From NCBI GenBank assembly GCA_022572905.1, contig JACZUZ010000010.1, forward strand, positions 1 through 12,682: a stretch of 12,682 nucleotides of DNA, read 5' to 3'. Source of the stretch: Candidatus Zixiibacteriota bacterium. GTDB taxonomy: Bacteria; Zixibacteria; MSB-5A5; GN15; JACZUZ01. This document shows positions 1-12,682 of this stretch, piece by piece; positions within the stretch are counted from its first letter, which is position 1; the number at the start of each line of letters is the position of its first letter. The translations under genes and the position numbers were made by a program. The notes beneath the pieces were generated by a model. That model was not told where the DNA came from. It saw only the letters and a program-made list of their open reading frames with translations, and ran no database searches.

Positions 1-127
1 TCCCGCAGTGTCTCGATGTGACTGTAACGCGCTGCCAGGTCTAGCGTTATGGGATATTCCCAATCAGGCGCCTACTTTGCTCAGTACACATTGCAGGACA
101 TGAATTAGAAGAGTTCGGAGGAACAAA

Positions 128-298
128 ATGATTTATACACGATTCAAAAGAGTCAAGATTAACAATCCCGACCACAGTGTTATCAAATGGGTTGTCGCTT
201 TCCTGATATTCATGGGAACGCTGACATTTACGGTGTGGGATGTTGAAGGCGCGCAGGTTGACACAAATGATCCAATCACTGTAGAATCTCAGCGCTAA
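128..298 (+). CDS. Small single-span membrane or secreted peptide, 56 aa
   Basis: No family is recognised. The ORF opens with ATG at 128, preceded by a strong Shine-Dalgarno site (GGAGG at 117-121, six bases before the start), and ends with TAA at 296-298. The product begins with a basic segment (residues 1-20, several Lys and Arg), then a hydrophobic stretch at about 21-38 (WVVAFLIFMGTLTFTVW), then an acidic polar tail with DVEGA and DTND. This is either a signal peptide with a possible cleavage after VEGA or a one-span membrane protein. It runs convergently to the terminase gene, whose stop lies 78 bp away. Coding status rests on the ribosome binding site and the ordered basic-hydrophobic-polar layout. 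Function is unknown. A phage-associated role is possible only because of the neighbour. Confidence 0.55.
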   Translation: MIYTRFKRVKINNPDHSVIKWVVAFLIFMGTLTFTVWDVEGAQVDTNDPITVESQR

Positions 299-375
299 TT
301 TTTCGCCCTTTCATTCTCTCACGCGCAGACATCGTTTATTCGTACTAAAATATGTTCCGTCATAAATATTGCCCA

Positions 376-1773
376 TCAGAACGACGCTACTCTAGCGTCG
401 ACACGTCGAATTCGAGACACGTCTCGTAGCGGCCAGAGCGCGAGCGCCAGAGCCATCATTCCGTCACATTTCGTGTTCTCATCCCATGTAGCTCCGCGCA
501 GTTCGTCCTCAAGCGACCACACTCGTCCGTTCTTATCCGCAATCTCAAAGCGCTCATAGGCGAGATGCTTCCTGACATGAAACATCTCAAGATTTGTTAA
601 AAGTTCGGCTTTGCTTTTTTCATTGAACAGGAATGGTATCGGCCCGACATCTCGTAATTCGGCAATTACGACGTCTCCCAATCCGGTGGCGTCGAGTACC
701 ACTCTTCCGGGGAAATTTCTCTGGCGCATACGGATTTTTTCGAAAACAAAGTTCCATTCCATTTCCTGAAAGCGCTCTACAGCGACGACCCGCGCGAATC
801 CGTCCCGCCTCACTGCCACAGTTATCCCAACAGTCGCCGTTCGTTTGCGAGCAAGGTCCCAACCGGAAATAAAGTATATCTTGTCATCTGATAATTTGTC
901 AGGTGTTTCGTAATCTGCGTCTCGCTTTAAGGCGGCGTCAACATAATCCGAGCCCACGATTTCGCGCCCGGAATCGACAAAAACCCCCATGATATTCTGC
1001 GCTACTCTTTGCGGAGAAAACAATTCAATACGCTGGTTAATATATTCACGCGACACAAACGGGTTTTCGCGTGTGTCGCCTATCTGCGCATATCCTATTT
1101 CCGGGTTATCCGCCAGGTCGCGCATTTTTTGATAGAACCAATTCTTTCCGTTTGGAGTAGAAACCAGGTCCAGCTCTCCGCGCCTGTCGGCCAAACGCAT
1201 CATTATCACCTCCTCGACCACATACTCCGCGGACGATTCAAAAGCGACTTCATCGAAAATGAAATAATCATAATCATTTCCAAGCAGATATTCGCCGCGA
1301 TTTTGGGTTGAGCGCGCCTCTATTTCGCTACCATTTCCAAATGTTATTTTGGGGAATGGAGTATGAGTGACATCGCGAATAAGCGCTGATGCGACTGATT
1401 TTCGCGCAAGCGACAGCGCGTAGTTCCAAATAATGCCGGCCTGATTTTGTGTGATTGACGCGACGACGATCCGATATCGCGCTGGTGTATCGTATTTGCT
1501 ATCGCGAACCTGGAAGATTGCGCGATGAAGCGCCTTTATGGCCCCGACGAATGATTTCCCCCAGCGATTGCCGGTTACCAGAAGATTCTGGCGAGAATTT
1601 GAGCGCCTGAGCCATTTGCGCTGGCCGGAATGGGGATTTACGCCCAGTATTTCGCGCGCAAAAAAAACCGGGTCTTTCAGACTCTTGCGCCAGAGACTTT
1701 CAAGCCATTGACTCTCATGTGCGAGAAGCTCCACAAATGCGAGCTCCCGTTCGCGAGACTTATCTGAATTCAA
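376..1773 (-). CDS. terL: Phage-type terminase large subunit (packaging ATPase/nuclease)
   Basis: This is the motor of headful DNA packaging: it cuts concatemeric DNA and pumps it through a portal ring using ATP. The N-terminal ATPase domain covers about residues 35-270: an adenine-contact Gln (Q51, in PHSGQRKW), Walker A VTGNRWGKS (66-74), Walker B FIFDEVAF (171-178, D174 and E175), and coupling motif STPNG (205-209). The C-terminal RNase H-like nuclease domain covers about 298-450, with candidate metal-binding acids D306 (SGWDLAR), D361 (VVLDATGLGD) and D437 (KCDGMMALALAL). The length of 465 residues is normal and no key residue is missing. The start is uncertain: TTG at 1773 lacks a clear ribosome site, whereas GTG at 1734 (residue 14) has GGAG nine bases upstream. 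It follows the portal gene by 41 bp and is probably co-transcribed with it. No small terminase gene is visible. Base style resembles the flanking cellular genes. Confidence 0.93.
   Translation of the reverse strand: MNSDKSRERELAFVELLAHESQWLESLWRKSLKDPVFFAREILGVNPHSGQRKWLRRSNSRQNLLVTGNRWGKSFVGAIKALHRAIFQVRDSKYDTPARYRIVVASITQNQAGIIWNYALSLARKSVASALIRDVTHTPFPKITFGNGSEIEARSTQNRGEYLLGNDYDYFIFDEVAFESSAEYVVEEVIMMRLADRRGELDLVSTPNGKNWFYQKMRDLADNPEIGYAQIGDTRENPFVSREYINQRIELFSPQRVAQNIMGVFVDSGREIVGSDYVDAALKRDADYETPDKLSDDKIYFISGWDLARKRTATVGITVAVRRDGFARVVAVERFQEMEWNFVFEKIRMRQRNFPGRVVLDATGLGDVVIAELRDVGPIPFLFNEKSKAELLTNLEMFHVRKHLAYERFEIADKNGRVWSLEDELRGATWDENTKCDGMMALALALWPLRDVSRIRRVDARVASF
382..426. repeat. 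Cluster of short palindromes in the 3' end of the terminase gene
   Basis: Three dyads sit side by side within the last codons of the terminase gene. At 382-400 an 8-bp perfect stem (CGACGCTA / TAGCGTCG) encloses CTC. At 406-415 lies the palindrome TCGAATTCGA. At 413-426 CGAGAC and GTCTCG flank AC. The octamer GACACGTC also occurs twice as a direct repeat, at 400-407 and 416-423. The terminase stop is at 376-378. No T-run follows the first stem on the minus strand, so a standard intrinsic terminator is not supported. The cluster could be an RNA structure, a protein site, or chance within an Arg/Asp/Val-rich coding end. Confidence 0.5.
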
Positions 1774-1814
1774 GACGCTGTTAGGTATTGCGGACAGTTT
1801 GTAAACAGGGGGAT

Positions 1815-3062
1815 CTAACCCAGCGCTCGTGTCGCCTGAGCTTTAGCCGCATCTTTTTCCAGCAATCCCGCTTCAAATAATTTGATTACGTTGTCAACGC
1901 GCTGGGTTTGAATAACGGCCGCTTTGTCGGATTCGTACGATGTCTTGTTATCGAAAACAAACTCACACCCGAAATCAAAGCCATGCAGGGCCAGGTCAAT
2001 ATTCCCAATCCATTCCATCACCCGTGCGACTTCGTTTTGAACACTCTGTGTCTGGCGCATGACCAGTTCAAACTTGAAAGAACTCCAACTCTCGGTCGCT
2101 CCGAATGAATATCCCAGGAGAAATGGAGACAAATTCGTCCCGGCGCAAATTTCCTCGATCATGGCGCGATGACTTATAAACCATGATTCCGAATCCCCGC
2201 GGCCGCGACGAGGACCGATATATTCGATATTGATGTCATTCCAGGTGACAGGATTGTCCTCAATCTCGATATCCTTTATCATCTTCGCGGTTTGATCAAA
2301 ATACGTGTTAGCGCGATCGTTGTAGGCCGTGTCAGTTTCGCCGACCTGCCGTTCGGGAGGCGTAACTTTTACATGAAGTCGGTGAAAACCTGAATTATGG
2401 CTCGAGCGCCTCATGTCGTCCACCAACTGACGCTCTACGTATGTGACAAATGGTATAGACCGCAGGATAGATCGTCCGAGACCAGTACTCCGATCGGTGT
2501 TCAATCCGAAATAGATAAAATCTGCGCGTTCGAGCGAAATCGATTTCTCCCCGGAATCCAAAAATAGAGTTTGCCGACCGCGCGAATCTGTTCGTGAGCG
2601 AATCTGAGAAACATCAACCAGCTGAAACCCCTCAACTCTGGTATGGTCGCTTGAAATATCTACGAATCCGGCAAAAGCCCCATCCGTGAAAAGCCCTTCA
2701 AAAATCACCGGCAGGAATCCGGCCATTCCTCCCGAGCGACGGAATTGGAAAGGGAAAATTCTTTCCCCGAGGCTATCCAGGGCTTTCAGAGCGGCTTTTC
2801 TGGTAGTTTCTGGGATATCCTCCGCTATGCGATATTCGGCCGGGGCGGCTGCAAGCCTGCTCCAGGTCCAGATGCACCCGCTAATAGCCGGAATCGAGTC
2901 TCTCAAATACCTGAAGAGATGAATGGGTAAATTCACGCTCAAAGAATCGCCGCTTCTCCAGACCAATGACCCCGGCCGATGTCTCCGGGCGAACCCAAAC
3001 GAGAGGTTGTCTAGCCGCGGCTCTCTGGAAAACCCGGCCGGTTCAATCAATTTCTTACTCAT
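1815..3062 (-). CDS. Phage portal protein
   Basis: Portal proteins form the twelve-subunit ring at one capsid vertex through which terminase pumps DNA. The 415-residue product has the family layout: an N-terminal wing, a segment reading ERADFIYFGLN then STGLGRSILRSIPF (about 178-205) that matches the usual 'GlSpl' region before a long helix, a stem/clip segment (VERQLVDDMRRSS, then HRLHVKV), the EEICAGTNLSPFLLGY region (about 303-318), a long helix (FKFELVMRQTQSVQNEVARVMEWI), and a C-terminal LFEAGLLEKDAAKAQATRALG typical of portal tails. The start chosen is ATG at 3062, because GGAG (3070-3073) lies seven bases upstream; the frame stays open to a TTG at 3083, which would add seven residues. 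The terminase gene follows 41 bp downstream. In most tailed phages terminase precedes portal, so the order here is inverted. Assignment to the portal superfamily is firm; the subfamily is not. Confidence 0.88.
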   Translation of the reverse strand: MSKKLIEPAGFSREPRLDNLSFGFARRHRPGSLVWRSGDSLSVNLPIHLFRYLRDSIPAISGCIWTWSRLAAAPAEYRIAEDIPETTRKAALKALDSLGERIFPFQFRRSGGMAGFLPVIFEGLFTDGAFAGFVDISSDHTRVEGFQLVDVSQIRSRTDSRGRQTLFLDSGEKSISLERADFIYFGLNTDRSTGLGRSILRSIPFVTYVERQLVDDMRRSSHNSGFHRLHVKVTPPERQVGETDTAYNDRANTYFDQTAKMIKDIEIEDNPVTWNDINIEYIGPRRGRGDSESWFISHRAMIEEICAGTNLSPFLLGYSFGATESWSSFKFELVMRQTQSVQNEVARVMEWIGNIDLALHGFDFGCEFVFDNKTSYESDKAAVIQTQRVDNVIKLFEAGLLEKDAAKAQATRALG

Positions 3063-3069
3063 CAACATA

Positions 3070-3073
3070 CTCC
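3070..3073 (-). promoter_or_regulatory. Ribosome binding site deciding the portal start
   Basis: GGAG on the minus strand lies seven bases before ATG at 3062. It selects that codon over the upstream in-frame ATG at 3068, which it abuts too closely, and over TTG at 3083. Confidence 0.6.
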
Positions 3074-3114
3074 ATATTTTCAATTATTTCATATTCCCCC
3101 TCTAATCAGGCTTC

Positions 3115-3127
3115 CAGCGGTCCGCTG
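3115..3127. promoter_or_regulatory. Perfect dyad CAGCGG-T-CCGCTG, possible operator
   Basis: A 13-bp sequence with perfect symmetry around T3121 lies 52 bp upstream of the portal start codon. Its position suits a repressor or activator site for the portal-terminase pair. No cognate regulator gene lies in the window, so the function is inferred from position and symmetry only. Confidence 0.35.
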
Positions 3128-3149
3128 ATAATGAATTACCCGATGTCTA

Positions 3150-3169
3150 TTTTGGTTTCCTTTCCAAAA
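3150..3169. promoter_or_regulatory. Dyad TTTTGG-N8-CCAAAA, possible operator
   Basis: Two 6-bp arms separated by eight bases form a 20-bp dyad about 88 bp upstream of the portal start. The arm spacing would place the half sites about 1.3 helical turns apart. It differs in sequence from the dyad at 3115-3127, so the two would bind different factors if real. The A/T-rich arms make chance occurrence more likely than for the other dyad. Confidence 0.28.
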
Positions 3170-3501
3170 GACTATTGATTTGGCGCTATTGGGAGATTTA
3201 GAGCCTATGGCGATATATCGCGTATAGCTGGATACTTTGGCGTCGGGAGTGAGAGGCGTTTCGGCTCAAATCGCCGATAAGTACAAGGACGGGGCCTAGC
3301 AGAAAACGCAGACACGTTGGTAGTGCAAATTTCACCCCAAAACGCTTGTCAGAGGCGATTTGGCGGCTATATTGGCGGACGAGCTTACGTGAACGAATCG
3401 TGGCATAAAGTTGTATCATACATCGGGGTCGAAAGAATCCATCATCAGTCCTCGCGATAACAATGAGAGACAATAGAGAAATCACAGGAGAATATTATAT
3501 C

Positions 3502-4101
3502 ATGAGAAGTCGATATCTAGCCAGCGCAGCGCTAATGTTACTGATCTTATTTTCGGCCGGGACTGCCGCGCTTTCCCAGGAAATCCCTCCGATTCCCAAA
3601 CCGGTCGACTCAGACCCGCTGGGTGAGCGGGACACGCTTTTTGCTGAGATTGCCAGAATTGACGACAATTCCTGGACTGTCAATCTTTCCACTTATAACG
3701 ACTACACTTTATTCGGACTTTCGATTCCGCTTCGCCTAACATCCGGTCTGCGAAAAGTGCTAATCGACTCAATCATTTTAACAGGCGGACGGGTGGAACA
3801 TTTCGAATGGCCGCTTATAAGAATAGATACTGCTATCCAATGCGTGACTGTTGGCTTAATCGCCGGGTTAAACCCGCAGGTTAAGCCTCTTGCGATAGGC
3901 CGCGGCCGAATAGCGACAATTTTTGCGCACAGCTTGGGCGAAGGCAGAGCCCCGGCCCTGAAAGTGGATACGATAACAACGGCTCCCTCAAATTCTCTGT
4001 TATTCATAAACAGCGAGATGAAACCCGACACCGAACAGTTCAAAATTTTGCCCGCATTCGTGGTCACTACCGTTGCCGAAAGTGAGATTCAGAAAAAATA
4101 G
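3502..4101 (+). CDS. Secreted 199-aa protein, predicted beta-sandwich (cohesin-like)
   Basis: The product has a clear N-terminal signal peptide: MRSR, then a hydrophobic core (about residues 6-22), then a likely cleavage near TAALSQ (about 21-26). A proline-rich linker (EIPPIPKPVDSDP) follows. The rest (about 43-195) alternates hydrophobic and polar residues as in a single beta-sandwich domain. The pattern of IPLRL, then IDSIILTGGRVEHFEW, then LAIGRGRIATIFA resembles cohesin-like or anchorage domains of secreted proteins in environmental bacteria; this similarity is from memory and tentative. The start is ATG at 3502, since AGGAG (3486-3490) precedes it and the signal peptide begins there; a frame-open ATG at 3463 would place unneeded residues before the signal sequence. 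It points away from the portal gene and converges on the nuclease gene, with 64 bp between the two stops. No catalytic motif is visible. The true function is unknown. Confidence 0.75.
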   Translation: MRSRYLASAALMLLILFSAGTAALSQEIPPIPKPVDSDPLGERDTLFAEIARIDDNSWTVNLSTYNDYTLFGLSIPLRLTSGLRKVLIDSIILTGGRVEHFEWPLIRIDTAIQCVTVGLIAGLNPQVKPLAIGRGRIATIFAHSLGEGRAPALKVDTITTAPSNSLLFINSEMKPDTEQFKILPAFVVTTVAESEIQKK

Positions 4102-4165
4102 GCGCAATTTAGTGTATTGTTGTGACGATCCGGGAAGGTCGGCGATCTGACCATCTTCGTTTCGC

Positions 4166-5416
4166 TTAATCTTTTTCAGAACCATCTGGCGCCTGCGTTC
4201 CTGCGGCGCCTTTCTTGTTGTAGCTGACGCTCAACGAGGGTTTGCGAGTTTCAATGATACATTCGCGCATAGCGTCAAGCGTTTCCTGCGGGAACTTTTC
4301 GGTAAGAAACCCATCTTTATAAGCGGCTTTTTCGTTCAAATCAAGAAACACATCGGCCATCTCGGACTTGCGCACAAGTTCGCTGATCTTAAGGAACTTC
4401 TGCAAATCCCGACTCTTCGACGGGAATCCTTTTTGCGCGGAGCCTATTTTTATTCTGCCCTGTTCGCCTTCTATTGTTCTAAGATTTTCTTTCGCGGCGA
4501 CGAACAGGAGTTCTTCCTTCAATGCGTCAAGCTCTGCTTTTATTGTTCTGGACTCTGTCGAAAGTTGTAAATATCTCTCCGCTTTTTTCTGCGCGTCGAG
4601 AAGCTCTTCCTCTGCCGTAGTTTCATCATCAAGAGCAAGTCGATGTCGTTTGGCCGGACAAAGCGAGAAATATGGGCAGCGCTTGCACAGGGGTGATTCC
4701 TTTGTGGGGAATTCATTCTCTGAAAGCGCTCTCTTAATTTCAAGAATGTCCTGAACAGCCTGATAACGCGCTTCATCCAAAAGATCAGGAGAAAGTTTTG
4801 CGCTGAATTCCTCACCCTGCCGCAGAAAAATTTGCTTTACAACAATATTCTCATACTGCGGCCAGCTCTCTTGCACGGCCATCTGATACAGCGCCATTTG
4901 CGGATTTCGCTCCAAATCTTTCTGACTGGGAATGCCTTTGCTGAATTTGTAATCTATTATCTCCACAACGCCGTCATCGCGTCGGCGTAAGCGGTCAATT
5001 ATGGCCACTATTTTATAACCGCGCTCCTCATCGAGAGTGAAAGTCAGACGCTTTTCCACTCCGAGCGTGACACCATCATCAAAAGGCGCATGCGATCTAT
5101 AATATTTCTGCAGGGAATCGCGTCCAAGCTTTATATAATGCTCAACTGACTGCGCAAGATCATAGACAACCAGATTCGCATGCGAAACGGTTTCCCATGA
5201 ATTGTCATATCTCTCGAGAAATTCCTCTTCGCTCAGAAGACAACCGGTCGCGGCGAGATCGTACAGATTCTCCAGCGCCCGGTGAAGCATCTGCCCGGTG
5301 AAGAGATCGGCCGAAACCGGGCGATCCACCTGAGGTCTTTCGATGTATTGGAATTTGAACCGCCTCGGGCAATTTCGGAAAACCCCGAGCTTTGAATGGG
5401 AATATCTATCGCTCAC
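4166..5416 (-). CDS. PD-(D/E)XK nuclease of the RecB/AddB/Cas4 type with Fe-S cysteines
   Basis: This is a DNA nuclease of the group found at the C-terminus of AddB and in Cas4. It begins with YSHSKLGVFRNCPRRFKFQYI (residues 5-25), the usual opening motif. Catalytic positions are H45 (GQMLHRALE), D141 (IIDRL), D155 and K157 (EIIDYK), and the QxxxY motif Q173-Y177. Four cysteines, C16 and C244/C247/C253 (CKRCPYFSLC), fit a 4Fe-4S cluster. After the nuclease core comes a charged, probably coiled-coil helix (about 265-310) and a C-terminal region (about 311-416) that is not recognised. The start is GTG at 5416: an in-frame stop lies just upstream and the family motif begins at residue 5. No helicase partner such as AddA lies nearby, and no cas gene is present. 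It follows the glycosyltransferase-like gene by 83 bp. Role in DNA repair or end processing is inferred from the family. Confidence 0.88.
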   Translation of the reverse strand: MSDRYSHSKLGVFRNCPRRFKFQYIERPQVDRPVSADLFTGQMLHRALENLYDLAATGCLLSEEEFLERYDNSWETVSHANLVVYDLAQSVEHYIKLGRDSLQKYYRSHAPFDDGVTLGVEKRLTFTLDEERGYKIVAIIDRLRRRDDGVVEIIDYKFSKGIPSQKDLERNPQMALYQMAVQESWPQYENIVVKQIFLRQGEEFSAKLSPDLLDEARYQAVQDILEIKRALSENEFPTKESPLCKRCPYFSLCPAKRHRLALDDETTAEEELLDAQKKAERYLQLSTESRTIKAELDALKEELLFVAAKENLRTIEGEQGRIKIGSAQKGFPSKSRDLQKFLKISELVRKSEMADVFLDLNEKAAYKDGFLTEKFPQETLDAMRECIIETRKPSLSVSYNKKGAAGTQAPDGSEKD

Positions 5417-5499
5417 ACATTGAATATGTTCGAGCGTTCGTCAGATATCAACCCCCCGATTTAAAATGTGACATCTCAAAAGAGCCAGAGGCGAGCAAT

Positions 5500-6678
5500 T
5501 CAAGCTGAGCTGCTTTGGTTAGGGGGCGCGGGAGGCGCGGGGTGCGCGGCGGCCGAACCCGAACGTTCCGGCGAAGACGGTGGAGCGGTTTGGGGCGTAC
5601 GAACGCGAACCGTGTCCAGCCATTCGCGAACAAACCCGAATCCGAGCGCAACGTGTCTCACGACAAAAATAACCGGAAGCGAGAGGAAGTACTCAACTTT
5701 ACCCTTCTGGTAAGCGATCAACGCGGAAACAATCATTATCGCAGCGAAATATATCGATGCGATAAACTGCAGCCAGCCCAGAAACGGGTCCCCCAACGGC
5801 GGACCGATAATTAGCAGAACAATAAAAGCAACAATAAGCGCCGGAGCGATAACCAATCTGCTGTCGCTAATTCCATTTTTGCGAAAAAAACGAAATCGCC
5901 CGCGACCGCCCTTAAGCAGGGATTTCCAGATCAGACCAAGAGATGACCACGGTTGCGAAAATGTTTTCAGCCCCGGAGCAAGAAAAGATTTTAATCCAGT
6001 GATTTTTAAACGGTAATTGAAATCCGCCAATTCGTAGGGTGACATTTTTGAATCAAACTCACCTACTTTCTTGAAGACTCCTCGGCGCCAGACCATGCCC
6101 AGACTTAAGGGATCACATTCGACTTCAGCGGAAGGAGCGTGAATGGCGCTAAGACTTTGCCCCATGAACGACAAACGCGCCTGCTCCACAGCTTGTTCGA
6201 ACATGTTCAAACCGTCTGGTATCTCAACATCGGAACGACACAAACAATTCGCGCCCGTTCGCTTAAAAGTGTCCGTGCAGTCCGTCAAAACGTGATCCGA
6301 CATGAGGCGTAAACTCGCTTCCATTATCATAATATAGTCAGCGCCGCTTTTCGCCACGGCCTTATTCAAACCTGAAGCCAGATCATTTGATTCGACATTG
6401 ATAACATTTAGACTCGCAATTGAGTTCTTGTAATTGGACAGAACGCCTTCGACAGCTCCCGCTTGCGCGCATGCCACTACAATAACTTCAATTCTCTCGG
6501 AGGGATACTCCTGTCGTTGAATGGAAGTCAGGGCCTGATCCAACCCGGCCAGAGATTCCCGTTGCGCGAGTATTACCGTAAAAAAAGGTAAGTCGGCCCG
6601 CTGGTCCATGCCCGATGCGCCTGGCTCTGAATCTTTCACAGGCCGACTCTCAATTCCGTTTGTTATCTCATCTGTCAT
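5500..6678 (-). CDS. Membrane-anchored family 2 glycosyltransferase-like protein, degenerate active site
   Basis: The fold signature is GT-A, family 2, similar in layout to ExoA-type exopolysaccharide transferases. The N-terminal strand FFTVILAQRE (32-41) is followed by TSIQRQEYP (51-59), EVIVVAC (64-70), LASGLNKAVAKSGADYIMIMEAS (100-122), then the acceptor-side region MVWRRGVFKKVGEFD (195-209) and ELADFNYRL (216-224). Membrane segments lie at about 275-292, 300-325 and 330-350. Two usual acidic sites are missing: the Asp expected after VV is replaced by Ala-Cys (69-70), and the DXD position reads E120-A-S122. Either this copy is catalytically inactive or it uses other ligands. The C-terminus (about 358-392) is a Pro/Ser/Ala-rich tail. 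The start at 6678 has no strong ribosome site; M24 is an alternative. It lies downstream of the heparinase-like gene (165 bp) and upstream of the nuclease gene (83 bp). Context suggests cell-surface polysaccharide, acting at the cytoplasmic membrane. Confidence 0.8.
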   Translation of the reverse strand: MTDEITNGIESRPVKDSEPGASGMDQRADLPFFTVILAQRESLAGLDQALTSIQRQEYPSERIEVIVVACAQAGAVEGVLSNYKNSIASLNVINVESNDLASGLNKAVAKSGADYIMIMEASLRLMSDHVLTDCTDTFKRTGANCLCRSDVEIPDGLNMFEQAVEQARLSFMGQSLSAIHAPSAEVECDPLSLGMVWRRGVFKKVGEFDSKMSPYELADFNYRLKITGLKSFLAPGLKTFSQPWSSLGLIWKSLLKGGRGRFRFFRKNGISDSRLVIAPALIVAFIVLLIIGPPLGDPFLGWLQFIASIYFAAIMIVSALIAYQKGKVEYFLSLPVIFVVRHVALGFGFVREWLDTVRVRTPQTAPPSSPERSGSAAAHPAPPAPPNQSSSA

Positions 6679-6716
6679 ATTAGCGCTTATCTTTACTGAT
6701 TTTCTTTAGATCCAAA

Positions 6717-6744
6717 TTTAGCAAATCCAATATCGGTTTAGCAA
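6717..6744. promoter_or_regulatory. Two TTTAGCAA direct repeats 20 bp apart
   Basis: TTTAGCAA occurs at 6717-6724 and 6737-6744, exactly 20 bp apart from start to start, or about two helical turns. They lie 39-66 bp upstream of the glycosyltransferase-like start at 6678. Position and phasing fit a dimeric regulator or a tandem promoter element. No matching copies were noticed upstream of the other genes. Confidence 0.3.
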
Positions 6745-6843
6745 GTGGTCATTCCCAGATGTTATGACCCTGCGGTTATTTACGAGCGGAAGAGAGAATT
6801 GTTTTGTTTTTTAGCGCCTGAAAACCGATAAAAGTTACCGGAG

Positions 6844-9126
6844 CTAGCGCACAAACTCAACAGCCGGCTTCGGATCGCGCATACTTTTCGTTGATCCCAG
6901 GGATATTTTCCCCGCTGGCCCCGCCCGCAGAAGGCGTTTCTCCTCATCAAGCCCCACCTCATACATCCCGGTTTCCTCAAGTAGCTTTACCGGGCCGATT
7001 CTTGATATAACCGTGGTTACGGAGCCTTTTGACGACATCCCCAGATCGGAAACGAGACCTCCGGTAACACCCACCAATCCATAATCGGGCGAGTAGGCGA
7101 ATTCGTTCTGTTTGGGTTTGAAGCGAATATCTTCATCCAGCTCCTCCAGGTCTTTTTCATTTGAAAATTCATTCGAGCCTCCTTTCGAACTATCGCTCTC
7201 ATTGTCTGTCGAGCTAAAGAGAATTTCCGGATTGATCGAGTAAAAGAATTCGGGTCCGTCTTCTTCAAATATTCTTTTCGCGCCAATATCAATTTTCAAC
7301 GACGGATGCAGTGTAAAGGGCAATGAAACTTCAACATCGCGCTCGGCCTCCCAGCTATCAACCATCAGCAATAGACCCTCATTGAAGAAAATAACCTCGC
7401 GATTAATCTGAGTGTCAAAACCCAGAACTTTGCTGTATCCGTTATGATGTCCCTTGAAATAAAATCCACCCGGAAAACTTCTCGCGCAGGCGACATCCGC
7501 GTCTGTAGTTTTATCCCATCCATCTGCGCCTGACTGCACGGATGGACCAATGCCGTTTATGATGAGAGTGTTTTTCCCAACTGCTCCGCGAAACCGTTTG
7601 CGAATCTCGGGGTTGTGGTAAATCGAGCCGGTTCCGCTATCCACTAGCACAGGTTTGCCCCCCAAATACAAAGCCAGCGACAATTGACTGTCATGTATAT
7701 GCTCATCAGCGCCAAAATCGAACTTCCCACATCTCAAGAGCAGAAAGTCACCTTCCTGACTTTTGTGTACTATGAATCCGGAATCGGAATCGATATCCAC
7801 CATACGACCTTCAGAATTACTGTCTGAGCTGACAGACGTCCGTTCGAAATTTTTATCGGTTTCCGCTTTTACTTCAGGAATTTCTCCGCACAGCCAGACA
7901 TTCTCCGCGTTTACCACTCGATCTGAGTTCATTGCATACGAACAATCAAATATGTCGCTCTCCGATATTAAAGCGGGACCGCTGTCAAGGGGATGAAACG
8001 CCAGCCAGCAGATTCTACCGCCATCGCAATCATTGAACTGAGGAACAAGCAAATCTTTCGGGGAAAGCTCCCTCAGGCGTTTGTGTGCGACCGCTGCGAT
8101 TTCTGTAACTCTGTTGTCCAGCTCGTATCCCAATTCACGCGCCAAACTGACAACGGTTACGTATATATCTGTGGCGTAAAGATGCGCCGAAGCGGTCAAG
8201 CCCATGTGGGTTCCGTCCGCCAGAAAGCGCTTCTCCGGACGGTCGGAGAGAATTTCCGCGGCCTGAGAACGCCAGTTAGCGGCTTCCACAAACTCAGGAA
8301 AGGCAGCGCCCACGCTATAAAGCGCAAGCGCCACTCCCAAAGGTTCGATTTCGGCGGCCTTATCGCGCCACAGATTTTTTTCAAGGCGCTGGCAACATTC
8401 CCAAATTCCTTTGAGGATCAGCGACAACAACTGTGGACGTCGAGCAAGTTCAACTCTGAAAAACTGAACCGCCCAAACCCAGGCGTAAACCCTGAGTGAA
8501 ATTTCAAAATCAGAAACGTAATTTATCCCCGACGAAAAACGGTTCCTGGTAAACCAATCAACCGTCAGTTCCGCGAAGCGCTCGAAATATTTCTTGTCTC
8601 CGCTCAGGACATAGGCCGGACCCAGCCAGTACACCCAACCCCAGCGATTTGGCTCGCGAAGGTGACGAAGATCGCCAATCTTGTAAAACTCCGTCAGATC
8701 AAGGTCGGCGTAAAAGCCCTCCGGCGCTGTGACTTCGTGAATATGATCGCGGCGCCAGCGATCGGAGCCTTTGAATGCGCCGGGATCGTGAGAAAGAATC
8801 GGCATTTTCCCAGCGACAACATGGTCCGCCCGCGAATAAATCAAAGAGCGTTCATAATCGCCATCATCGTAATAATCACGAATTTTTTCCAATTTCTCGT
8901 CATAAAGAAAACAACCGGAGGTGCGGGAAAGTACCCAGCGCCCCAGCTCTTTCTCGGATTTCCCCAGCGAGCGCAGATGGTCTTGCGGATCAAAGCGCTC
9001 GGAGTTGTTCTTATAGGCCCAACGACTGAAACCATGAAACACGCACGCGTTAACCTCGCGCCACAACTTATCGGTTTCCAGACGTTCAAGCATATTTGTC
9101 AGAGAGTTCTTCATATGTATCTTCAT
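6844..9126 (-). CDS. Heparinase II/III-family polysaccharide lyase-like protein
   Basis: The family comprises lyases of uronic-acid polysaccharides and related proteins in exopolysaccharide clusters. The N-terminal (alpha/alpha) toroid domain covers about residues 60-400, including LREPNRWGWVYWLGPAY (156-172) and INYVSDFEISLRVYAWVW (201-218), the usual 'NW..slE..lR...W' region. The C-terminal beta-sheet domain (about 445-720) contains SGFIVHKSQEGDFLLLRCG (449-467), GADEHIHDSQLSLALYLGGKPVLVDSGTG (472-500) and GAVGKNTLIING (514-525), the usual 'H.D..s..l...G.p.l.D.G' and 'HNT' regions. By recall, family members read DGxxxExSxxYHxx in the toroid; here residues 304-316 read DGTHMGLTASAHL, so the Glu is Gly and the catalytic-type Tyr is Ala. 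A Ser/Asp/Glu-rich insertion lies at about 639-668. There is no signal peptide, so a cytosolic site is likely unless exported otherwise. The start is ATG at 9126; ATG at 9114 is an alternative. It is followed by the glycosyltransferase-like gene. Confidence 0.85.
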   Translation of the reverse strand: MKIHMKNSLTNMLERLETDKLWREVNACVFHGFSRWAYKNNSERFDPQDHLRSLGKSEKELGRWVLSRTSGCFLYDEKLEKIRDYYDDGDYERSLIYSRADHVVAGKMPILSHDPGAFKGSDRWRRDHIHEVTAPEGFYADLDLTEFYKIGDLRHLREPNRWGWVYWLGPAYVLSGDKKYFERFAELTVDWFTRNRFSSGINYVSDFEISLRVYAWVWAVQFFRVELARRPQLLSLILKGIWECCQRLEKNLWRDKAAEIEPLGVALALYSVGAAFPEFVEAANWRSQAAEILSDRPEKRFLADGTHMGLTASAHLYATDIYVTVVSLARELGYELDNRVTEIAAVAHKRLRELSPKDLLVPQFNDCDGGRICWLAFHPLDSGPALISESDIFDCSYAMNSDRVVNAENVWLCGEIPEVKAETDKNFERTSVSSDSNSEGRMVDIDSDSGFIVHKSQEGDFLLLRCGKFDFGADEHIHDSQLSLALYLGGKPVLVDSGTGSIYHNPEIRKRFRGAVGKNTLIINGIGPSVQSGADGWDKTTDADVACARSFPGGFYFKGHHNGYSKVLGFDTQINREVIFFNEGLLLMVDSWEAERDVEVSLPFTLHPSLKIDIGAKRIFEEDGPEFFYSINPEILFSSTDNESDSSKGGSNEFSNEKDLEELDEDIRFKPKQNEFAYSPDYGLVGVTGGLVSDLGMSSKGSVTTVISRIGPVKLLEETGMYEVGLDEEKRLLRAGPAGKISLGSTKSMRDPKPAVEFVR

Positions 9127-9183
9127 GAATATCTTGTTGGTATTATTGCGAATGGAAATGATCAGAAAACTTCTCTGACCCCG

Positions 9184-9203
9184 TACCGCTATTATCGGCG
9201 GTA
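9184..9203. repeat. Inverted repeat TACCGC-N8-GCGGTA
   Basis: A perfect 6-bp stem with an 8-base loop lies between the metallophosphoesterase stop (9260) and the heparinase-like start (9126). The minus-strand bases after it (CGGGGTC) are not a T-run, so an intrinsic terminator is doubtful. An operator or RNA hairpin upstream of the heparinase-like gene is equally possible. Confidence 0.3.
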
Positions 9204-9259
9204 AATGGGATTAGATTCAGAGATTTGGAATAAAACGCGATGAAGAAAAGGAGGGAAAA

Positions 9260-10495
9260 TCAGGCCTTGCGAAGTGTGATAATTGGCGCCTCGGTGGGAC
9301 ATCCCAGTCGGAATGGAAACCAGTGGCCTATCCCGCTGGACGTATATAGTTTATTCTGGCCAATCTCGAACTCACCCCAGAGATAACTATTCTTATTGAA
9401 CACATCAAAAACCGACTTACCCATAAATCCCACCTGCCCACCATGCGTATGCCCCGCCAGCGAAAGATCAACCCCAGACTTAGCGGCCACCTCAAATGCC
9501 CAGGGACGATGTGTTAGAAGAAGTTTAAATGATTCGCTTTCAGAATCGCGCATTGAACGTTCAACGGTTTCGTCATAGAACGAATCATACTTTGCGCCCC
9601 ACCTCATCGAAACCGGATCATCTGCGCCACCCACATAAATACTGCTAGCGCCGACCTGTATTTTCTCTCCGGAATTAACCAAAAGTGGAATCGGCCCTGC
9701 GTTGAAAGTTCGGTAAACCTGCTTTATGCCGCGATAGTATTCATGATTCCCGAGTGTGGCGAACGCGCCGTAACGCGGATTCAAGGCGGCGATTAACCTT
9801 AGCGCATCGGGTAATTGATCGAGCCTGTCGGCGAAATCGCCAACTACTACGATCAAATCGATCTTTTCTTTCTCCAGCTCAAGCGTCAGCTCCTCTAAGT
9901 TATTCAGCGTATAAAAGAGACCCAAATGCAGATCACACAAATGTAATATGCGAAACCCCTCCAGATCGGGACTCAAGTTCGGAAACCTCAGAGGTAATTC
10001 GAAAACTTTAACCGAACTGTAAGAGCCCAGAACACCCGCAACTCCGCTGGTCATTGCCAGAGCGGGGAGAGTAGCGCCAGCCATAAGCAAATAGCGACGC
10101 TCCGGAGAAACTAGTTCTTCTGAAATTTCTTCGGAAGCGTTGGCGCCACTATCGGAGGAGTCCCGAAGATTCCTTTTGCTTTTTCTTTTAAGAAGCCAAT
10201 CCGCTAAGCGCAAAATGCCTGAAATGGGCAAAACCAATGTCGCGGCGATAAGAGAAACCCACAGCGCGGCCGCCAGAAGTCCCATTGGTGTTTCAATCCA
10301 GATCAGTCCCTGCCAGCGACCCAGAAACAAAAGAATTGTGGCGACAAGAGTCAGAAGAGGCGCTCCCCATATAACTCTGCGACCCCAGTGCGAACGCCAT
10401 AGAGTTGGAGTGAAGTATTTGGCCATAAGAATAGCCGTCGCCCCCACTGCTAAATGGAGACCCAAAAAAGCCAGAACAAACATCGTTACTCTCAT
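9260..10495 (-). CDS. Membrane-anchored calcineurin-like metallophosphoesterase (YkuE-like)
   Basis: The catalytic domain (about residues 175-410) carries all the metal-site motifs of the calcineurin-like superfamily: D188-x-H190 (HLCDLHLG), G219-D220 (VVVGDFADR), GNHE at 249-252, H329 (LLLTHRP) and GHTH at 348-351. Hydrophobic segments at about 5-27, 42-60 and 70-97 are membrane spans. A basic and acidic linker (about 101-130) follows, then PERRYLL and a fourth hydrophobic segment (about 136-157), which resembles the twin-arginine-like leader seen in YkuE-type proteins but here in an internal position. The catalytic domain is therefore membrane-tethered. Known relatives hydrolyse phosphodiester or pyrophosphate bonds, some in lipid A or phospholipid metabolism; the substrate here is unknown. 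The start is ATG at 10495, with ATG at codon 5 possible. It lies 232 bp after the helicase gene and 133 bp before the heparinase-like gene, so co-transcription is uncertain. Confidence 0.9.
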   Translation of the reverse strand: MRVTMFVLAFLGLHLAVGATAILMAKYFTPTLWRSHWGRRVIWGAPLLTLVATILLFLGRWQGLIWIETPMGLLAAALWVSLIAATLVLPISGILRLADWLLKRKSKRNLRDSSDSGANASEEISEELVSPERRYLLMAGATLPALAMTSGVAGVLGSYSSVKVFELPLRFPNLSPDLEGFRILHLCDLHLGLFYTLNNLEELTLELEKEKIDLIVVVGDFADRLDQLPDALRLIAALNPRYGAFATLGNHEYYRGIKQVYRTFNAGPIPLLVNSGEKIQVGASSIYVGGADDPVSMRWGAKYDSFYDETVERSMRDSESESFKLLLTHRPWAFEVAAKSGVDLSLAGHTHGGQVGFMGKSVFDVFNKNSYLWGEFEIGQNKLYTSSGIGHWFPFRLGCPTEAPIITLRKA

Positions 10496-10727
10496 CTATA
10501 TTCTCGCTGCTATCATAAATTGATCACCTAAGTTAAAACTGTGCGCCCCCCAGTGATTTCACAATTCCCGACAGAGCAATCCTGCAGTCCGTCAGTTCGG
10601 CGGGCCGCTTTGAGACATCATACGATCAAACATAACATCGGGTTCCCGTATATGAATACTTGACCCTCGGTGAGCGCTAAAATAGTTGGGACCGCTAATA
10701 GTGATTGATAAGCGCCGACTGGATGTC

Positions 10728-12023
10728 TTATAGCCTGCGTTTCCTTTTTTTCCGGCCCACTCTGCCAAATTCTTCCTTGGGAGTGGAGGTGGGCTTCTCA
10801 CCCTCTTCCTCCTGCGGGACATCTTTGGGATCAAAGCCAAAGAAAACCGGAGGCGTTTTCTCAAATATCTTGGTAGATGTTTGCCTGAAGATCGTATCTA
10901 AGGGAACTGCAAACCCCTTCACTTCTTCTCTATCTATTTTGTATCCGAGTATTGCTTCTATGGCTAGAAGTTTCTCGTATTCCTCGGGCGACACAAGTGT
11001 AATAGCGTCACCCTCGGCGTCCAGGCGAGCTGTGCGGCCAATTCGATGAATATAATCATCGGGGGCATCCGGCGTATCATAATTGACCACATGCGTGATC
11101 CCCGAAATATCCAACCCGCGCGCGGCGATATTTGTCGCCACCAGAATCTTGTAGCGACCATTCTTGAATCCTTCGAGAGCGCGCAGACGCTGGGGTTGTG
11201 TGCGGTCTCCATGAATAACCGCAACCGAGCGCCAGGTATGCTTAAGTCGCGCGGCGACACGATCCGCCTGACGTTTGGTTCGCGTGAAAATCAAAGCGGA
11301 ATCCAGATTAACAGACTTTAGAACTTTTTCGAGCAGGTCAAGTTTTGTGCGAAGAGAAACAGGATACACTTTATGCGAAATACCCTGGGCTGGAGCGCCA
11401 ACAATTCCAATCGATACTTTGACAGGATTGTGAAGAAAATCCGTAGTCAGGCGCATTATCTGGGGCGGAAATGTAGCCGAGAATAACATCCGTTGACATC
11501 TATCGGGAGCGCGTCTGAGAATTCTGCGGACATCGGGCATAAATCCGACATCCAGCATACGGTCCGCTTCATCGAGAACGACGAACTTAAGACGTTTGAG
11601 ATTTATCACGCCCTGGCGCAGATAATCCAAAAGCCTTCCTGGAGTAGCCACAATTATCTGAACACCTTTTTCAAGCTCTTCCCTGCCCGTGCGCACTGAA
11701 CTGCCGCCGTATGCGACCGTACTCTTATGTCCGCTGTATTTGCTGTACGCAAGTAGGTTCTTGCCAACTTGAATCGCCAGTTCGCGAGTAGGAGTCAAAA
11801 TCAGCGCTTCCGGAAAGGGGTTCTTGCTGGGCTTCAATTTACTCAAGATAGGCAAGAGATAAGCCGCGGTCTTGCCGGTGCCTGTTTGCGCTGTGCCAAC
11901 CATATCGCGGCCGGACTGAGCCACCGGGATAGCCTCATCCTGGATGGGCGTGGGCGTTTTATACCCTAATTCATCCAGCGCTCTATAGAGAGATTTATCA
12001 AAATTAAATTTTCTAAAAGACAT
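10728..12023 (-). CDS. DEAD-box ATP-dependent RNA helicase, RhlE-like
   Basis: The enzyme unwinds short RNA duplexes using ATP, usually in ribosome assembly or RNA decay. All superfamily 2 motifs are present in order: Q motif YKTPTPIQ (21-28), motif I AQTGTGKT (45-52), Ia PTREL (78-82), GG (106-107), Ib TPGR (127-130), II DEAD (151-154), III SAT (182-184), IV ALIFTRT (243-249), V ATNIAARGLD (296-305) and VI HRIGRTAR (326-333). The N-terminus (MSFRKFNFDKSLYRAL) begins like E. coli RhlE. The C-terminal extension (about 385-431) ends in a basic GRKKRKRRL tail, a likely RNA-binding patch. Length 431 fits the group. The start is ATG at 12023 with only a weak ribosome site; a possible -10 element lies 34 bp upstream. 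Gaps of 235 and 232 bp on either side suggest a separate transcription unit. Confidence 0.95.
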   Translation of the reverse strand: MSFRKFNFDKSLYRALDELGYKTPTPIQDEAIPVAQSGRDMVGTAQTGTGKTAAYLLPILSKLKPSKNPFPEALILTPTRELAIQVGKNLLAYSKYSGHKSTVAYGGSSVRTGREELEKGVQIIVATPGRLLDYLRQGVINLKRLKFVVLDEADRMLDVGFMPDVRRILRRAPDRCQRMLFSATFPPQIMRLTTDFLHNPVKVSIGIVGAPAQGISHKVYPVSLRTKLDLLEKVLKSVNLDSALIFTRTKRQADRVAARLKHTWRSVAVIHGDRTQPQRLRALEGFKNGRYKILVATNIAARGLDISGITHVVNYDTPDAPDDYIHRIGRTARLDAEGDAITLVSPEEYEKLLAIEAILGYKIDREEVKGFAVPLDTIFRQTSTKIFEKTPPVFFGFDPKDVPQEEEGEKPTSTPKEEFGRVGRKKRKRRL

Positions 12024-12056
12024 CTGGTTTATCCGTTGGAAAGTTTTTTCTCGCGC

Positions 12057-12062
12057 ATTATA
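12057..12062 (-). promoter_or_regulatory. Possible -10 element (TATAAT) of the helicase gene
   Basis: TATAAT on the minus strand lies 34 bases before the helicase start codon, allowing a leader of about 25 bases. The -35 position (about 16 bases upstream, reading GCCGAC) is a poor match, so the call rests on the perfect -10 hexamer and its location. Confidence 0.35.
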
Positions 12063-12258
12063 GGGTTTTGGGCAAACGGTCGGCTTTCTGCGAGCGCGCG
12101 AGAGTCTGGTATCGTTCTTCAGTTACCGGAAACAGTCCTCGAAACCAATATAAGGGGAATTGCCGGTCTATTCCAGATCAAAATTGAAAACGAGGCGATC
12201 TCGGCTTTTACCTAATTTGTGGAAAGGGGAATTTACGCAAGGGATTCCACAAGGTCGA

Positions 12259-12682
12259 TCAGTCGCTGACTGAGATCAGACCTTTCTCAATTTCTACATC
12301 TGGATGCTCTGAGCAGTGGAATTTGTATAATCCCAATACCGGGAAATAGACAACAGAGCTGTCGCCATACAGAAGCAGGCCAGAGTCGAAACCTCCGGGT
12401 GTGTCTGATACGAATTGATGCCCCTCGATCTTAGTAAGCTCGTCCAGGTTTACAAAATTGACGCCAAATCCGCGCTTAATATTCAGGTTCGTCGGGGAAA
12501 GAATTTTGTTGGCGATTAACACTCTCACAATCGGAAACGCGGGGATACTCACGAATGCGGGCTCAGATTTTTCGGACTCGTTGCCGAAAATATCTGTCAC
12601 GACAACTGCGACGATGTAATGACCGGTATCAATATACAAATGGCTTGCGGAGAAGACTTCATCTCCTGAGTGAAAAAGTATA
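12259..12682 (-). CDS. PKD-like plus plastocyanin/cupredoxin-like protein, 5' end outside window
   Basis: The frame is open to the right edge of the window, giving 140 C-terminal residues of a longer protein; the TTG at 12639 is not needed as a start. Residues 1-47 (fragment numbering), with GDEVFSASHLYIDTGHYIVAVVVTDIFGN, match the end of a PKD or Ig-like repeat ('Y...G.Y.V...VTD..GN'). Residues 51-138 form a cupredoxin-like domain: IANKILSPTNLNIKRGFGV (56-74), FVNLDE (76-81), H88, FDSGLL (98-103), and the copper loop FHCSEHP (121-127). Candidate type 1 copper ligands are H88, C123 and H126. The axial Met expected in CxxHPxM is replaced by Val129. Extracellular location and a role in electron transfer or copper binding are inferred from the domains; the fold may also serve only structurally. 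The stop (TGA) is 235 bp before the helicase start. Confidence 0.75.
   Translation of the reverse strand, partial: ILFHSGDEVFSASHLYIDTGHYIVAVVVTDIFGNESEKSEPAFVSIPAFPIVRVLIANKILSPTNLNIKRGFGVNFVNLDELTKIEGHQFVSDTPGGFDSGLLLYGDSSVVYFPVLGLYKFHCSEHPDVEIEKGLISVSD

Follow-up and report, generated by a model that had tools for sequence, protein, structure and literature searches.

Within a 12,682-base window of the draft genome of a Candidatus Zixiibacteriota bacterium, we identify adjacent genes for a phage-type portal protein and a terminase large subunit (TerL). This pair is probably the packaging end of a domesticated caudoviricete gene cluster that has been inherited mostly vertically across the Zixibacteria and is used as a gene transfer agent (GTA). 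A new phylum-wide GTA, short-tailed or tailless, is the best explanation of our data, rather than a prophage remnant. Sequence comparisons show that the genes for a set of head and packaging proteins (portal, terminase, protease-like, decoration-like, major capsid (MCP), and adaptor-like) have been kept mostly in single copy under purifying selection. From this we infer particle formation and the packaging and transfer of host DNA: Most likely, the cluster packages pieces of its own host's DNA and moves them between cells. A GTA fits genes that have been retained mostly by vertical descent, that encode a conserved packaging motor, and that have dispersed without being lost.

A packaging pair at a contig end

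The window comprises bases 1 to 12,682 of a 13,128-bp contig (genome of 2.49 Mb in 484 contigs, 77% complete). A first-pass annotation had named the two genes from the window alone, and database searches bear the names out. TerL matched Pfam Terminase_6N (PF03237; E 6.8e-13) and the PHROG family phrog_2, 'terminase large subunit' (E 5.7e-39); the portal matched phrog_3753, 'portal protein' (E 8.1e-23), and no Pfam family at E 0.01. TTG is the listed start codon of both open reading frames (ORFs). Most relatives' TerL alignments begin only near residue 19-28, so the true start may be internal. As that annotation had proposed, the catalytic motifs of the terminase are intact: Walker A (GNRWGKS), the DE of Walker B, and the Asp residues of the nuclease hardly vary across 57 terminases (55-57 of 57 at each position checked), and departures are gaps or X, save one Gly replacing Ser in Walker A. 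Its judgment that base composition matches the flanks also stands, with the GC content of the pair (~0.48-0.52) inside the window range of 0.45-0.55.

The pair had been described as an orphan, with no capsid or protease genes nearby. This is true of the window, but as biology it is a contig-end effect. The left end of the window is the contig end, and the terminase gene stops 375 bp from it. Related genomes have a protease-like gene next after TerL, 0.4-1 kb away in G001, G003, G005, and G055 and further in some others; that position therefore falls beyond the end of the window's contig. Capsid genes follow in the relatives as well. The suggested genome-wide search for the missing head genes recovered the protease-to-MCP part, including small genes, on a separate contig of the same genome (C295, also L323; 4666 bp). 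Thus, the pair is no orphan.

The gene cluster in relatives

We mapped ORFs at 42 order-level loci including the window, at 19 loci outside the order, and on C295. The encoded roles are, in order, portal, terminase, protease-like, head-decoration-like, MCP, beta-propeller, adaptor-like, and exported fibre-like proteins. By gene, the portal and terminase are followed by the protease-like gene, a ~100-aa membrane protein, ~137-aa and ~140-aa proteins, and the 367-aa MCP; then come 470-aa, 270-aa, ~124-aa, and ~98-aa proteins, a variable gene, and ~485-aa and ~108-aa proteins. The cluster spans 14.9 kb in G001. Seven large core genes stand in exactly this order at 22 of the 42 order-level loci, and the remaining 20 have contig-end cuts, split, merged, or missed ORFs, or real breaks, not all of which were sorted. 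Outside the order, the small genes vary in order. The arrangement of portal before terminase, already pointed out as unusual in the first-pass annotation, is general: The portal immediately precedes the terminase at 39 of 39 order-level loci with both called.

The protease-like protein is ~500-630 aa within the order (262-734 aa across 56 sequences), and His111 and Ser164, adjoined by a Cys/His cluster, are kept in all 56. The G001 MCP matched phrog_3922, 'major head protein' (4e-62). All 16 members of the 140-aa family (s140) matched phrog_4588, 'virion structural protein', and one also matched 'head decoration'. Structure comparison of a model revealed an adaptor-like fold in a cluster protein, and a small terminase may be encoded by the 98-residue family (s98), a weak candidate. 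We identified no lysis gene. Nor did the cluster yield a full-length tail-tube or tape-measure match, only weak partial tail matches, such as the ~108-aa family (s108) to phrog_3519 (E 0.047) and one of 19 ~485-aa proteins (f485) to phrog_1204 (E 0.003). PF10145, the sole tape-measure family searched genome-wide, was present in just 2 of 35 genomes. Contigs C52 and C55 (L388) of G010 carry strong PhageMin_Tail tape-measure matches, probably an ordinary prophage in one relative.

PEP-CTERM-type genes on the opposite strand occur directly before the portal gene and between the terminase and protease genes (L031:10343-11200, and the TerL-protease gaps of many order-level loci).

Distribution across the phylum

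Our sample comprised 132 Candidatus Zixibacteria genomes, 78 of them high-quality. Homologues of TerL, portal, and MCP were found in 115, 112, and 111 genomes, respectively (71, 70, and 73 of the high-quality ones), mostly as a single match each; extra matches within a genome are fragments, except for a distant terminase in G022. All three genes occur in 97 of the 132 genomes, and at least one in 124 (76 of the 78 high-quality genomes), counting G058 and G104 on a weak terminase match alone (E 3.4e-11, and E 1.2e-7 over 40 residues). The eight genomes missing all three are G018, G040, G070, G076, G091, G094, G098, and G105, of which G018 and G070 are high-quality. Among 60 relatives, 55 have a terminase homologue (40 of 41 high-quality), mostly once, and near-complete matches are 49-65% identical.

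Several genomes show apparent loss: G018 (98% complete) is without portal, TerL, and MCP; G069 (one contig, 99%) keeps portal and MCP without TerL; and the one-contig genomes G051 and G078 retain portal and TerL but not MCP.

Among 78 database loci, 63 have this terminase with an identity of at least 48%. Of these, 13 are labelled outside Zixibacteria/GN15 ('bacterium' 7, 'FCB group' 2, Calditrichaeota/Calditrichota 2, Thermoplasmata 1, Ignavibacterium 1). The terminases on the metagenome-assembled genome contigs labelled Calditrichaeota/Calditrichota, Thermoplasmata archaeon, and Ignavibacterium (L083, L102, L110, L128) are 53-61% identical, and MCP relatives at 63-68% (P0022, P0034, P0046, P0054, P0071) carry taxon labels including Acidobacteriota, Candidatus Acidoferrum, and Deferrimicrobium. 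These contigs are mislabelled, mis-binned, or a real spread outside the phylum.

Inheritance with the host and purifying selection

The cluster genes largely track their hosts. MCP and rpoB trees of 30 genomes have 20 of 27 splits in common, compared with at most 4 in 2000 label shuffles, and a patristic correlation of r = 0.90. For TerL, 15 of 25 splits agree with rpoB (28 genomes, r = 0.84), and for the portal 18 of 23 (26 genomes, r = 0.91). The MCP and rpoB alignments each reject the other's exact topology (approximately unbiased test, P = 0.008 and 2e-5), and inheritance is therefore mostly, not strictly, vertical.

The ratio of nonsynonymous to synonymous substitution rates (dN/dS), which the first-pass annotation had proposed to estimate across relatives, is low where measurable. 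Between G012 and G024 it is 0.013 for MCP, 0.088 for portal, 0.104 for TerL, 0.20 for the protease, and 0.295 for f485. Between G114 and G115 it is 0.048 for MCP and 0.107 for the protease, the portal and terminase falling outside the stretch compared. In three further pairs many synonymous sites are saturated.

Chromosomal place and split loci

That the locus might be syntenic in related genomes had also been raised, and we found the cluster and its neighbours largely conserved within the order. A conserved gene (hyp4, TPR5, or PDDEXK) lies within 6 kb upstream at 33 of 39 order-level loci having enough flank, all but those of G026, G029, G032, G036, G043, and G053. Downstream of the cluster, the f700 family is present at 19 of 19 order-level loci.

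In some genomes, the cluster is divided and both halves are kept. The one-contig genome G106 has its MCP gene at 11 kb and its portal and terminase genes at 1305-1307 kb; with halves ~1.3 Mb apart, the cluster could not travel as one unit. The halves lie ~90 kb apart in G114 and ~410 kb apart in G029, both one-contig genomes, and split loci occur also in G067 and G034. The terminase match of G029 halts at profile position 400 of 431 (C1:2541962-2543164), and its 3' piece (375-431; C1:2126980-2127150) lies 3.5 kb ahead of the distant MCP gene; the breakpoint of a rearrangement falls within the terminase gene. Separate terminase 3' pieces are also found in G023, G067, and G121.

Features of the window are given in Table 1. 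The PD-(D/E)XK family is common to 22 of the 42 order-level loci; this conserved neighbour may possibly have a role with the particle. In G005, the C-terminal part of its relative gave a weak Mu-Gam-like match. Glycosyltransferase family 2 and heparinase II/III-like genes adjoin the locus (window 5500-9126), an exopolysaccharide-like neighbourhood in the source genome. The f700 protein, on the opposite strand (L032:4855-7260, -), has a C-terminal dockerin and DUF7451 and is a putative surface protein. The wider flanks in the one-contig genome G005 encode, on one side, dihydroorotate dehydrogenase, OMP decarboxylase, and a radical-SAM protein and, on the other, an HD/response-regulator protein and an M50 peptidase.

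Table 1. Features of the 12,682-base window.
Feature	Position	Strand	Evidence
Stretch past TerL to the contig end	1..375		Contig geometry, relatives' maps, sequence
Terminase large subunit (TerL), ATPase motor and nuclease; cluster gene 2	376..1773	-	PF03237, phrog_2, 465 aa
Portal protein; cluster gene 1	1815..3083	-	phrog_3753, 422 aa
Flanking host gene, family hyp4; marks the chromosomal place	3463..4101	+	Same family in 30/42 order-level loci
PD-(D/E)XK nuclease family flanking gene	4166..5416	-	PF12705 E 7.6e-33; phrog_69 exonuclease E 4.4e-33

Apparently exported proteins

Export was called by a simple hydrophobicity rule on N-termini. Hydrophobic N-termini were found in 37 of 44 f485 proteins, in 21 of 23 variable-gene proteins, and in the small membrane-protein-like families TM100 (29 of 31) and s108 (15 of 23). 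By the same rule there were none in the portal, terminase, protease, MCP, s140, f470, f270, s124, s98, or s137 proteins. In most f485 proteins, an N-terminus resembling a Sec signal peptide leads into a conserved start of the mature protein; a few begin in the wrong frame or at the wrong start under the simple ORF rule. The term fibre-like is a guess from the CarboxypepD_reg domain and weak tail matches. A search with f485 yielded at least 74 proteins among the 7995 candidates that it scored; of the eight with a taxon in the source name, five were Zixibacteria, two 'bacterium', and one Candidatus Acidoferrum. A conserved, apparently Sec-exported fibre-like cluster protein is unlike any GTA known to us.

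Phage relatives

In the 80 viral contigs listed for each scan, identity is 34% for the TerL with the highest score and 37% for the top-scoring MCP other than that of L239. On L239 (IMGVR_UViG_3300027896_005586), genes for portal, terminase, protease, MCP, and f470 follow the Zixibacteria order, and the MCP is 57% identical; this contig is most likely a piece of a Zixibacteria genome entered as viral. The nearest phages found have the head module in common: The IMG/VR contigs L245 and L246 have portal, protease-like, s140, and MCP genes in order, and L247 the last three; no matching terminase was found on L245-L247. MCP identity is 32-34% in five records of gut phages, MT835769 among them. These uncultured tailed phages have related head genes at low identity. 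Terminases of Thermus and Meiothermus phages are 24-26% identical to TerL across 80-90% of its length; these are free phages and only distant TerL relatives. TerL matched solved phage TerL domains (E 5e-7 to 4e-6), whereas the MCP and portal profiles had no solved-structure match at E 0.1. Chains of the RcGTA particle (6te8, 6toa) were among the structures compared.

A probable gene transfer agent and its alternatives

GTAs have been defined by six features (PMC9662315, section 3). Our tests found two of these and part of a third in the Zixibacteria. The cluster is fully endogenised, in some genomes over more than one locus, as seen in the conserved neighbours and the five split genomes, and its inheritance is mostly vertical with co-diversification, as seen in the rpoB comparisons. 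Of the feature of caudoviricete-derived proteins, the derivation was found, through the phage families of TerL, portal, and MCP and the adaptor-like fold. Several observations weigh against a GTA. A few copies are broken: The near-complete terminases of G038 and G056 have one internal stop each, and the MCP match of G044 is divided between 1.725 and 2.322 Mb. The gene trees are incompletely congruent with the host tree. The 270-aa protein has a weak partial tail match (phrog_807, E 5e-5 across 37 residues), and its model also resembles tail-tube domains. Exported fibre-like proteins are odd for a GTA.

The broken copies would suit an ordinary prophage, or a remnant of one at the contig edge, as would the phage-like core genes and the capsid genes after the terminase in relatives. 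We nevertheless regard this explanation as very improbable, and it is already largely contradicted by mostly single matches across the phylum, by neighbours conserved in the order, by split halves that are retained in G106, G114, and G029, and by low dN/dS and trees that largely track the host. A prophage would have an integrase and replication or lysogeny genes beside its structural genes. A Pfam scan found no integrase, replication, or lysogeny genes among the nine window proteins; nor were any present among 10 G001 cluster proteins, or among 19 G005 cluster and flank proteins plus one G044 protein, and the flanks scanned are host genes. The first-pass annotation had reasoned that capsid, tail, and integrase genes just left of position 1 would indicate an ordinary prophage edge or remnant. 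Relatives do have capsid genes there, but the conclusion fails because no integrase was recognised, the host neighbours are conserved, and the genes are inherited with the host. That annotation offered three readings: a dispersed GTA-like system, a domesticated DNA-translocation module, and a recent prophage remnant. The last is largely contradicted, and the GTA-like system is supported by synteny, phylum-wide and mostly vertical inheritance, purifying selection, and two-locus dispersal in some genomes.

Incomplete congruence of the trees, together with the gene order on L239, could instead reflect repeated infection by a single Zixibacteria-specific phage lineage. Given the same neighbours at most order-level loci, the low identity of the listed viral contigs, and the simpler view of L239 as a host fragment, we find this scarcely credible. 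A domesticated capsid kept vertically for another purpose, for example regulated release of DNA, killing, signalling, or storage, deserves more weight, although we consider it unlikely. Conservation shows a host benefit without showing which, and exported fibre-like proteins are unexpected in a GTA; the packaging motor and nuclease residues, however, are conserved, and would be needless for a storage shell or tail-like weapon.

A GTA would operate as follows. Some cells would express the cluster, the co-encoded protease would mature the assembled capsid, and the terminase and portal would pump host DNA into it. The adaptor-like protein and beta-propeller would close the capsid as a short tail, and particles would exit through lysis. 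Recipients would take up the DNA, perhaps via ComEC; 33 of 35 genomes encode a ComEC-family protein, which at most makes DNA uptake possible. The apparently Sec-exported fibre-like proteins would act outside the cytoplasm, perhaps as a recipient-side receptor or adhesin. More tentatively, and with the odds rather against it, the cluster may be an ancestral phylum-wide GTA that encodes both sides of the transfer: a short-tailed particle bearing a beta-propeller of lectin fold, and, on the surface of kin cells, a Sec-exported, fibre-like protein that, with variable exported partners, would receive or dock this particle in a dedicated role.

The three GTA groups classified in PMC9662315 (RcGTA-like, Bartonella, and Brachyspira) come from alphaproteobacteria and one spirochaete genus. 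Like the Zixibacteria cluster, they consist of endogenised caudoviricete head and packaging genes, mostly vertically inherited and sometimes at several loci. The likeness is one of gene content and inheritance. In contrast to them, the Zixibacteria system spans another whole phylum, has apparently exported proteins, and gave no match to a tail tube or tape measure over its full length. Among GTAs with two operons and a short tail or none, the closest precedent is FpGTA of Faecalibacterium, for which particles and ~9-kbp packaged DNA have been shown (PMC12946183, section 9). FpGTA has two separate operons per genome, with portal, TerL, and MCP and no identifiable tail, and is probably podovirus-like. 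It differs in belonging to a gut Gram-positive genus and in having a head-scaffolding gene and a lysis operon, and the Zixibacteria system is likened to it by description.

Significance

Should one inherited operon encode both sides, it would match donors and recipients of host DNA, and the apparently exported proteins raise the question of how GTA particles recognise kin. The MCP is a marker that viromics can seek at once. The 132 genomes, with a natural loss (G018) and natural splits (G106, G114, G029), also form an evolutionary test bed. A GTA kept through a whole uncultured phylum, its catalytic residues almost unchanged, would mean that the domestication of a phage took place at or close to the root of the Zixibacteria, and that a DNA-packaging particle has been under selection ever since.
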